Positions 45,011 through 48,306 of a DNA stretch of 64,000 nt are shown piece after piece. The stretch spans positions 1 to 64,000 of the forward strand of contig CABVRX010000012.1 in the NCBI GenBank assembly GCA_902500825.1, in the 5' to 3' direction. A program made the translations under genes and the position numbers. Position 1 is the stretch's first letter; each line of letters opens with the position of its first letter. The notes under the pieces are model-generated. The model ran no database searches and was not told the DNA's origin. It was given only the letters and a program-made list of their open reading frames with translations. The DNA is from an uncultured Nitrospira sp. (lineage in GTDB: Bacteria > Nitrospirota > Nitrospiria > Nitrospirales > Nitrospiraceae).

Positions 45011-46816
45011 CTACTCGGCAAGCGCCCTACGGAGGTTCGAGACGGTCTTCGCATTGAGTCCGGCTTCCCGTAAGGCTTCGTCGCTGGCCGAAGCCAGTTT
45101 GTCGAGACTGCCGAATTTCTCTAGGAGTTGATTGCGCCGAATCTCACCGATTCCGATGACCTGATCCAGCCTGGAGCCGACCAGTGATTTGCCGCGCAGC
45201 TTTCGATGGAAGGTGATCGCAAAGCGATGGGCTTCGTCGCGAATCCGTTGGAGCAGATGGGTGGAAGGAGATTGCGGTTTGAGCACGATCGGGTTTTTTC
45301 TTCCCGCTAGGAAGACACGCTCCTCTTTGTCGCCGCGGGCCTTGGCCAGCCCAAGGATCGGCAGACCTTGTCGTCCTGTCTCTTTGAGCCCCTCCAGCGC
45401 GGCGGCCAGTTGACCCAGTCCGCCGTCGATAAGTATCAGATCCGGTTGAGCCAGGTTCTCCTCTCGCCCATAGCGACGCGTCACCACCTCTTTCATACTT
45501 GCGAAGTCATTGGCCCCCATGACCGTTTGGATCTTGAACCGCCGATAGTCCGCCTTCTTCATCTGTCCGTCTTCCCAGACGACCATCGAAGCGACGGATT
45601 GGTTGCCCATCGTGTTAGAGATATCGAATCCTTCGATTCGACGGGGAGCCTGTTCCAGTCGCAGCAATCGCTTCAGTTCGTCACCGGCTTGCCGGTCCAG
45701 TTCCTCATCCCGCAAGTGATCAGCGACCGCCGCCGCTGCATTCTCCTCGGCTAAGAGGACAAGCTGATGCTTGGCGCCTCGCTCAGGCGAGCGTACACGA
45801 ACGGATTCCCCTCGCTTGTCGGACAGCCATTGTTGAATCAGGGGAGCGTCTTCGAGATCGGTCGGGACAAGGACTTCTCTCGGCGGCTGCCCGTCCTTGT
45901 TGTAGAACTGCTCGATCGCGGAATGCACCAGCTCCTCATCGGACACAGCGGCCGACTGAGGCCAGAAGAAATCTTTCCGTCCGATCAGCAAGCCGCCACG
46001 CACGAACAGAATCTGGAGGTCCACTGCCGAACCTTGTCTGGCTAAGCCGATCACGTCCTGATCGGCGGCCGAGGTCTGCGTGATCCGTTGCTTTTCCAGC
46101 ATCCGTTCGATTTTGAAGAGGCGGTCCCGCAACCGGGCCGCTTCCTCGAACTCTTCCCGCTCTGCCGCCGCTTCCATACGGGCGCGGAGATCGTCCAGTA
46201 ACTCGCGATCCCGGCCCTCCAGAAAGTGGCGAACCTGTTTGACGATCTGATGATATTCCTCCTTCGATTGGTTGCCGGTGCAGGGCGCCATGCACCGCTT
46301 GATCTCAAATTCGATGCAGGCGCGGTCGGCGGTCCCGTCGATATCGATCGTGCACGTGGCGAGGGGGAAAACGTGTTTGATGACTTTCAGCGTCTCTCGA
46401 AGGGCGTTCGCCGGGGTATAAGGGCCGTAGTAAAGGGCTCCGTCTTTTTGCACGCGGCGCACGATCGAGAGTCGGGGAAAATCGTCCTTGATGGGCAGCC
46501 GTACATAGGGATACTGTTTGTCGTCCCGCAACACGATGTTGAAACGGGGTTTATGGCGCTTGACCAGGTTGCTCTCAAGAATCAGGGCTTCGAGCTCGGA
46601 TCGGGTCACCATCGTCTCTATGTCGGCGATGTGGCTGACGAGAAGACTGGTCTTGGGGCTATGGTCTGTACCCTTCTGAAAATAGGATCGGACGCGGTCG
46701 GCGAGCACGGCTGCTTTCCCGATGTAAATGATTTCTCCTTGCTCGTTCTTGAACAGGTAGACGCCGGGGCTCTCGGGGAGATGGGCAAGTTTGGATTGGA
46801 GAATATCGATCGTCAT
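45011..46816 (-). CDS. uvrC: Excinuclease ABC subunit C
   Basis: UvrC makes both incisions in nucleotide excision repair. The 601-residue protein has an N-terminal GIY-YIG nuclease (Gly-Val-Tyr...Ile-Tyr-Ile-Gly-Lys-Ala), a Cys-rich region around residue 165, a UVR motif that binds UvrB (about 200-235), an RNase H-like nuclease with Glu-Gly-Phe-Asp-Ile-Ser and Ile-Leu-Ile-Asp-Gly-Gly, and a C-terminal helix-hairpin-helix pair. uvrA, also in this window, encodes a protein that lacks its insertion domain. Confidence 0.96.
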   Translation of the reverse strand: MTIDILQSKLAHLPESPGVYLFKNEQGEIIYIGKAAVLADRVRSYFQKGTDHSPKTSLLVSHIADIETMVTRSELEALILESNLVKRHKPRFNIVLRDDKQYPYVRLPIKDDFPRLSIVRRVQKDGALYYGPYTPANALRETLKVIKHVFPLATCTIDIDGTADRACIEFEIKRCMAPCTGNQSKEEYHQIVKQVRHFLEGRDRELLDDLRARMEAAAEREEFEEAARLRDRLFKIERMLEKQRITQTSAADQDVIGLARQGSAVDLQILFVRGGLLIGRKDFFWPQSAAVSDEELVHSAIEQFYNKDGQPPREVLVPTDLEDAPLIQQWLSDKRGESVRVRSPERGAKHQLVLLAEENAAAAVADHLRDEELDRQAGDELKRLLRLEQAPRRIEGFDISNTMGNQSVASMVVWEDGQMKKADYRRFKIQTVMGANDFASMKEVVTRRYGREENLAQPDLILIDGGLGQLAAALEGLKETGRQGLPILGLAKARGDKEERVFLAGRKNPIVLKPQSPSTHLLQRIRDEAHRFAITFHRKLRGKSLVGSRLDQVIGIGEIRRNQLLEKFGSLDKLASASDEALREAGLNAKTVSNLRRALAE

Positions 46817-46901: not shown

Positions 46902-47771
46902 CTATTTCAATCCTCGGACAAATGATGGGCTGAATGTCCCTCGCGCGACTTCGGCCACCGGCCCTTTCATCGTGAGGCTGAAGTCCGGTGCGACATCGAT
47001 ATGCAGCACCCCTCCCGGCATCTTTACAGTGACGGGGCTCTTCACGAGTCCTAGACGTACCGCTGCGCTGGCTGCAGCGCAGGATGAAGAGCCGGAGGCC
47101 TGCGTCTCGCCGGCGCCTCGCTCCCAAATCAGAATGAAGATTTCCTTGGGCCCGGTTGGAACCGCGAGCTGCACGTTAGTCCGTTTAGGAAATAGTGTGT
47201 GGCGTTCCAGGGCTGGTCCAATCGCCACGAGTTCTTCCCGTGACCAGGATTCTCCGGCTGGTTTGAAGACGACACAATGTGGATTGCCGACGCTCACGCC
47301 GGTAAACGTCAGAGTCCGTCCTGCTGCTTGGATCGGCTGCTGAATCAACTCGGGTACGTTCAGCGAGCAGGGGAGCGCATCTGGTTTGAACGTTGCGACT
47401 CCCATCTCGACGGTCGCAGCAGCTGCATCGCCATGCCGGTCTATATGCAGGTCAATGCTGACCATCCCGCCCTTTGTCTCGACTGTGAAGCGCTTCTTCT
47501 TCGTTTTACCGGTCGCGTGGAGATAGCGTGCAAAGATCCTGAGGCCATTCCCTGATTTTTCCGCCTCGCTGCCGTCGGGGTTGAAAATACGTAGCCCGAA
47601 ATCGGCCTTCTTTGAAGGGACCAAGGCCAAAATCCCGTCACTGCCTACGCCCCAATTGCGGTCGCAAATAGTTTTGATGTTTTTGGGAGTCAATTTAAAG
47701 GTCATTTCCTTGGGATCCATTACCAGATAGTCGTTACCGAGACCATGTCCGCGAAAAAAACCGTTCTTCAT
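46902..47771 (-). CDS. dapF: DapF-like diaminopimelate epimerase with both catalytic cysteines replaced by serine
   Basis: 289 residues of the DapF fold, with Gly-His-Gly-Leu-Gly-Asn-Asp-Tyr at the start, Gly-Val-Gly-Ser-Asp-Gly and Gly-Asn-Pro-His-Cys-Val later. In normal DapF the two bases are Cys73 (Glu-x-Cys-Gly-Asn-Gly) and Cys217 (Thr-x-Ala-Cys-Gly-Thr-Gly). Here they are Ser73 in Glu-Lys-Ser-Gly-Asn-Gly and Ser226 in Gln-Ala-Ser-Gly-Ser-Ser-Ser-Cys; both are read directly from the codons (TCA and TCC). Other pocket residues (Asn, Pro, Arg, Glu) are kept. The protein may catalyse a different reaction, or work with serines. Confidence 0.85.
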   Translation of the reverse strand: MKNGFFRGHGLGNDYLVMDPKEMTFKLTPKNIKTICDRNWGVGSDGILALVPSKKADFGLRIFNPDGSEAEKSGNGLRIFARYLHATGKTKKKRFTVETKGGMVSIDLHIDRHGDAAAATVEMGVATFKPDALPCSLNVPELIQQPIQAAGRTLTFTGVSVGNPHCVVFKPAGESWSREELVAIGPALERHTLFPKRTNVQLAVPTGPKEIFILIWERGAGETQASGSSSCAAASAAVRLGLVKSPVTVKMPGGVLHIDVAPDFSLTMKGPVAEVARGTFSPSFVRGLK

Positions 47772-47907: not shown

Positions 47908-48306
47908 TTAAACGATCTTCACGCCGACCGGCCGTTCGATCAACTCGATCTCATAGCCGTCTGGCGCATCGATAAAAATGAATCGGCTGCCGGAGGAGGT
48001 TGTCGTGGGACCGTCGGTGATCCTGACTCCCTGCGCATTGAGCAAGGCGATCGTTTCGTCGAGGTTTTCGACTTGAAAGGCTAGATGAACGAGATCTTCC
48101 TGAACTTTCACCGGGCCACTTGGTGGGAAACTGGTCAACTCGATCAGCTCGTCGCTATTGGGAACTTTCAAGAAAGCGAGATGTGATCCACGAGGAGAAG
48201 TCTTCCGCTCAATAACCTCAAGGCCCAAGACGGTCGTATAAAACCGGATGGTCTCATCCAAATCGCTGACCCGCATACGAGTGTGGAGCAGTTTTTGTAC
48301 CTTCAC
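47908..48306 (-). CDS. gloA: Glyoxalase/VOC-family protein
   Basis: 132 residues of a vicinal oxygen chelate protein. It opens with Leu-His-Thr-Arg-Met-Arg-Val, keeps a metal His-to-Glu pattern (His-Leu-Ala-Phe and a later Glu-Leu-Ile-Glu), and shows Pro-Asp-Gly-Tyr-Glu-Ile-Glu near the C-terminus, as in lactoylglutathione lyase (glyoxalase I). Methylglyoxal detoxification is the likely role, though other VOC functions cannot be ruled out. Confidence 0.8.
   Translation of the reverse strand: MKVQKLLHTRMRVSDLDETIRFYTTVLGLEVIERKTSPRGSHLAFLKVPNSDELIELTSFPPSGPVKVQEDLVHLAFQVENLDETIALLNAQGVRITDGPTTTSSGSRFIFIDAPDGYEIELIERPVGVKIV

Follow-up and report, generated by a model that had tools for sequence, protein, structure and literature searches.

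The dapF locus and its two serine sites

The window, a stretch of 64,000 nucleotides from the genome of an uncultured Nitrospira species, carries on its minus strand an open reading frame for a DapF homologue of 289 amino acids plus stop, with an ATG start (46902..47771). The protein is the sole DapF match in its own genome. It reaches 225.6 bits against the DapF equivalog TIGR00652 (cut-off 114.65) and 178.7 bits against PF01678, and its closest PDB matches are all DapF, the P. aeruginosa enzyme 8qzy being first. Neither the CntK histidine racemase model NF033599 (10.9 bits, cut-off 300) nor the model for the Chlamydia-type bifunctional DapF/glutamate racemase, NF038284 (57.1 bits, cut-off 350), matches the protein, and the PhzF model PF02567 matches weakly and below threshold (15.5 bits against a Pfam cut-off of 27). 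On the same strand lie uvrC (45011..46816) and, upstream of dapF, a VOC/glyoxalase-type gene (47908..48306). Both neighbours were recognised as open reading frames and by synteny and serve here as position markers only; no functional link of uvrC to dapF is claimed.

DapF, a drug target, is a textbook case of a two-thiol epimerase. Of the two cysteines of the classical enzyme, one abstracts the alpha proton and its partner gives a proton back, and the literature accounts for this chemistry by a cysteine thiolate/thiol pair. The preliminary description of the locus had reported serine in place of both catalytic cysteines, and the open reading frame, the codons and the alignment to solved DapFs all confirm it. 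At site 1, where solved DapFs read ..QCGNG.., the window protein has ..EKSGNG.. with Ser73 encoded by TCA (47553..47555, minus strand; surrounding sequence NPDGSEAEKSGNG). At site 2, ETQACGSG of the solved enzymes is aligned with ETQASGSS, and Ser226 is encoded by TCC (47094..47096, minus strand; surrounding sequence ERGAGETQASGSSSC). Thus, Ser73 and Ser226 stand in the alignment where a classical DapF has its two cysteines. The Glu-Arg-Gly-Ala-Gly-Glu-Thr segment, likewise said earlier to be kept, is intact in the translation as E217 to T223 (47103..47123, minus strand) and belongs to the conserved pocket motifs.

Conservation extends to most of the pocket. N13, N64, G74, N75, N199, E217, R218 and G227, which we take from established DapF structures to have substrate-pocket roles, are conserved across proteins with two serines (Ser/Ser), with serine at site 1 and cysteine at site 2 (Ser/Cys) and with two cysteines (Cys/Cys), and E217 and R218 are invariant in every sampled DapF. 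Every Cys/Cys and Ser/Cys enzyme sampled has a third cysteine, at +6 from site 1; the window protein has I79 there, and I79 is among the changes specific to the Ser/Ser clade together with P65, S228 and V272. Residues at and near the starts of the two helices do not vary. In a predicted model of mediocre confidence (pLDDT 67.6), which is silent on active-site geometry, Ser73 directly precedes helix 74-86 and Ser226 directly precedes helix 227-239. A Foldseek search with this mediocre model gave top matches that were all DapF (E 3.8e-23, TM about 0.46). Lys72, next to Ser73, is not supported as a replacement base, as this position is R in the Agrobacterium vitis homologue, M in that of Streptomyces and Q in that of Clostridia.

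Distribution and conservation of the serine pair

Conservation of the serine pair across Nitrospirota, a check proposed in the preliminary description, was surveyed in 396 genomes of this phylum, N. moscoviensis and N. defluvii included, with counts taken by hand from tables. DapF is of the Ser/Ser type across Nitrospira and in families f3 and f22, the latter of which we take to be Leptospirillum-like; the DapFs sampled from most other families of the phylum, and from several other phyla, are Cys/Cys. Within the Nitrospiraceae (f1), DapF was detected in 107 of 110 genomes, with the motif AEKSGNG in 97 of these 107 and a Ser/Cys protein in the other 10. Family f3 yielded a DapF in 25 of 28 genomes, and 24 of the 25 have AEKSGNG; in the remaining one dapF is broken up between contigs, and its fragment shows the second serine. 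All f22 genomes with a detected DapF (13/13) carry the motif. Altogether, both sites are serine in 105/105 Ser/Ser-type DapFs tallied from Nitrospira, f3 and f22. The relatives retrieved from genome contigs, the best 80 of 301, are all Nitrospira. Isolated matches to the search pattern in other families are mostly due to chance, as codons for Thr, Arg, Cys and Trp satisfy it too. No dapF was found in 6 of the 138 f1 and f3 genomes (G122, G295, G348, G054, G306 and G364; stated completeness 88-99%), which likely reflects assembly gaps. A tandem pair of Ser/Ser dapF genes occurs in one Nitrospiraceae genome (L164, G236:C22:829946-832121), and one f22 genome (G086) has two Ser/Ser copies.

The first serine is encoded by TCN in most genomes and by AGC in the Leptospirillum-like genomes and N. 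moscoviensis, and the median pairwise dN/dS of Ser/Ser dapF is 0.064. Since the serine pair is invariant, synonymous serine codons are used and dN/dS is this low, decay is excluded and strong purifying selection acts on the gene. The Ser/Ser DapF of Nitrospira is real, conserved and biologically meaningful.

The genomic position of dapF differs between the types. Families f2, f4, f5 and f8 have the order lysA-dapF-dapA-dapB with a Cys/Cys DapF, and argH lies upstream where it is within reach. The corresponding operon of the source genome, argH-lysA-dapA-dapB, is without dapF. More generally, lysA and dapA share one neighbourhood in Nitrospira, f3 and f22 with no dapF between them, and the Ser/Ser gene lies elsewhere. 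Its surroundings are conserved: uvrC adjoins dapF in 80/80 Nitrospira loci checked, and the VOC/glyoxalase-type gene is found upstream in 75 of 87 loci.

Ser/Cys DapFs were found as the sole copy, adjoining lysA, in 15 genomes, namely in seven other f1 genera (10 genomes) and in f9 (5 genomes); in the f1 genera the next genes are dapA and dapB. These lysA-linked proteins (L279-L288, L168-L174) keep the cysteine at site 2, and their serine at site 1 is encoded by AGC or TCC. They resemble the window protein in being the only DapF of their genomes and in having serine at site 1, but differ from it in the cysteine at site 2, in their place next to lysA and in falling on the Cys/Cys side of the tree. 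Judged by sequence, they are a natural half-way case between Cys/Cys and Ser/Ser.

For the trees, the columns of both sites were masked; the trees are unrooted, so that no direction of change is claimed, and the A. vitis and Streptomyces proteins form long branches. Plasmid, phage and viral collections were sampled for the spread of the subfamily outside Nitrospirota, the viral contigs contributing one useful homologue. All Ser/Ser proteins fall on one side of a branch with support of 100/99 and 100/98, and their clade takes in a phage-like homologue from Clostridia and plasmid homologues of A. vitis and Streptomyces. On these trees, site 2 has to change once and site 1 three times. Joining the two Ser/Cys groups into a single group gave an AU p of 0.31, and therefore the number of changes at site 1 is two or three. 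The masked-site topology marks the serine pair as the sign of a subfamily, not of a recent double mutation in Nitrospira, and it places a further origin of serine at site 1 within ordinary lysA-linked DapFs. The earlier suggestion that a paired change reflects selection rather than decay thus holds in its first part, given the invariant pair, a dN/dS of about 0.06, the use of both TCN and AGC codons and the lack of a second, Cys-type dapF; a local paired change is at odds with a clade that extends outside the phylum.

Gene contexts outside the main groups vary. In three genomes of one f19 genus (G064, G074 and G083; L291, L292 and L293), the lysine operon contains a Cys/Cys DapF, and a second DapF, of the Ser/Ser type, is encoded at another locus, which in G064 adjoins a ribulose-phosphate epimerase-like gene. 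The plasmids of A. vitis (L296:12225-18161) and Streptomyces (L297:12317-18015) share a gene set around the Ser/Ser DapF, comprising an iron-containing redox enzyme, a 2OG-Fe dioxygenase, a molybdopterin oxidoreductase and an aldo/keto reductase, with an EamA transporter nearby; by gene content it looks like an unassigned biosynthetic cassette. The coexistence with a Cys/Cys DapF in f19 and the occurrence in these cassettes imply that not every member need be a lysine-pathway epimerase; from the cassettes, a part of the clade probably has a role other than DAP epimerisation. On the phage-like Clostridia contig, the homologue (L272:2923-3765) has a large serine recombinase and a fragment of a sporulation-type sigma factor nearby, and the contig resembles a skin-type element.

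The diaminopimelate pathway in the source genome

The source genome comprises 3.79 Mb and is 99.78% complete. A second dapF with cysteines, for which the preliminary description advised looking, was not found there, and searches with the protein itself, PF01678 and TIGR00652 revealed no second dapF of any type; a weak PF01678 match on contig C9 is not a DapF. The remainder of a DapL-type pathway is present. DapL, the LL-DAP aminotransferase, scores 617.5 bits with TIGR03540 (cut-off 593.25), which fits the protein; the plant-type DapL model TIGR03542 proved to be the wrong one. LysA is present with 547 bits, dapA and dapB adjoin lysA, and MurE is of the DAP-adding type with a DNPR motif. No meso-DAP dehydrogenase (Ddh), an enzyme that would make the epimerase dispensable as a bypass, scored over the cut-off in this genome, the only matches being weak and restricted to short N-terminal stretches. 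DapL delivers LL-DAP and LysA uses meso-DAP; therefore, lysine synthesis at the least requires an epimerase. As the pathway is otherwise complete and lacks a meso-DAP dehydrogenase, the conversion of LL- to meso-DAP has to be accomplished.

Candidates for another enzyme with this activity were sought in two ways. A search confined to the alanine-racemase type (PF01168), as distinct from Asp/Glu racemases, detected no conserved extra enzyme in the Ser/Ser genomes; an Alr-like match, a YggS-like match and LysA were found in nearly all genomes compared. Likewise, no conserved new gene lies beside lysA-dapA-dapB or dapL in Ser/Ser genomes. The source genome has one extra match of the alanine-racemase fold (L251, G000:C10:73355-74026; 76.7 bits), which is absent from the congeners G024 and G022.

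Proposed function and alternative readings

Either serines can do DapF chemistry, or another enzyme makes meso-DAP in Nitrospira. Considering that the window protein is the only DapF found, that the steps on either side of it in the pathway are represented, that no Ddh scores over the cut-off, that most pocket residues are kept and that the serine pair is fixed, we regard it as probably the working LL-/meso-diaminopimelate epimerase of Nitrospira, a member of a distinct Ser/Ser subfamily that would have replaced the ordinary operonic DapF. The simplest reading of the site, by analogy with the classical enzyme, would be a two-serine acid/base pair. Each serine hydroxyl, placed like the cysteine at the N-terminus of one central helix, would approach the alpha carbon of the substrate from one side within a closed, water-free pocket and serve there as acid or base; one serine would remove a proton and the other return one, so that one centre of LL-DAP is inverted. 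The helix dipole, groups of the substrate or a neighbouring residue are candidates for raising the basicity of serine.

Comparison with known systems shows which features are shared. Classical DapF (TIGR00652, PF01678; structures 8qzy from P. aeruginosa and 1gqz from H. influenzae) agrees with the window protein in family score and most pocket residues, probably in fold, in its place in a DapL-type lysine pathway and in being the sole copy. The two differ in the exchange of both catalytic cysteines for serine, the loss of the third conserved cysteine and the position of the gene outside the lysA operon; as it has neither catalytic cysteine, the window protein is not counted among the classical, two-thiol DapFs. 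A serine in one catalytic position of a natural two-base epimerase is known from 4-hydroxyproline 2-epimerase B9K4G4, a member of the proline racemase superfamily that works with Ser93/Cys255 (PMC4113996); its fold is related, but family and substrate are others and one cysteine is still present. CntK/HisR, the 2,4-diaminobutyrate racemase PddB and O-ureidoserine racemase have the DapF fold and perform a cofactor-free 1,1-proton transfer like that proposed here, but all possess the cysteine pair, and the serine mutants that have been assayed lost almost all or a large part of their activity. When a single cysteine is changed to serine, PddB retains <0.1% activity (PMC8225329), a figure cited in that paper for M. 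tuberculosis DapF as well, and the activity of HisR is greatly reduced (PMC11602996). PhzF isomerases have a DapF-like fold and, like the window protein, are devoid of the cysteine pair, but their chemistry is different and the window protein is only a weak match to them. Literature on a Ser-type DapF or on DAP in Nitrospira was not found, which is no proof of absence.

These mutants, nearly dead or greatly reduced, are the strongest objection to the two-serine reading and speak for its main rival. On that view the Ser/Ser protein would be a paralogue of DapF that catalyses a different reaction or acts on a different substrate, and the meso-DAP of Nitrospira would come from an unrelated enzyme that has escaped recognition. 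The homologues in biosynthesis-like cassettes and on the phage-like Clostridia element point the same way, as does the f19 protein that coexists with a Cys/Cys DapF. We nevertheless consider such a paralogue unlikely, since the Ser/Ser protein is present in f1, f3 and f22 just where the operonic dapF is missing, the neighbourhoods of lysA-dapA-dapB and dapL offer no conserved new gene, neither Ddh over its cut-off nor a conserved extra PF01168 racemase was detected, and the lysA-linked Ser/Cys DapFs show that site 1 tolerates serine. Still less probable is a purely non-catalytic binding or regulatory role. It would fit the loss of both accepted catalytic residues, and E. coli DapF binds and regulates RppH (PMC4227774); yet genomes that depend on the reaction yielded no DapF homologue besides this protein, and residues superfluous for mere binding are invariant in and around both helix starts. 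Binding only and another substrate had both been listed as possible outcomes in the preliminary description, and pathway context renders each less likely than DAP epimerisation.

The faint activity left in the serine mutants of PddB and, as cited alongside, M. tuberculosis DapF (PMC8225329) allows for a DAP epimerase that follows the ordinary mechanism, but poorly, and whose slow residual serine-based activity would be enough for a slow-growing chemolithoautotroph. We hold this to be improbable, although less so than a mere binding protein: strong purifying selection and linked clade-wide changes (I79, S228, V272 and others) look like an adapted enzyme rather than a tolerated lesion, and the serine pair has been retained in two groups that are assigned to separate classes. 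For a decaying gene or a sequencing error nothing speaks beyond the substitutions themselves, and the identical residues in 105 sequences, the several synonymous serine codons, the median dN/dS of 0.064 and the conserved synteny reduce its probability to almost nil.

That a thiol-free, two-serine amino-acid epimerase of the DapF fold sustains an essential reaction of Nitrospira and Leptospirillum-like bacteria at physiological rates, as part of a wider Ser/Ser subfamily labelled ordinary DapF in databases, is in our estimate an evenly balanced proposition. Globally important nitrifiers that live with a two-serine DapF would either demonstrate that this chemistry can dispense with the thiol pair or bring a missing DAP epimerase to light. 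We can only guess that serine was favoured because it makes the active site resistant to oxidants or nitrogen oxides. The Cys/Cys, Ser/Cys and Ser/Ser proteins would form a natural series for testing the cofactor-free removal of a proton with a pKa near 29. Automatic annotation calls the Ser/Ser proteins DapF without a check of the catalytic residues.
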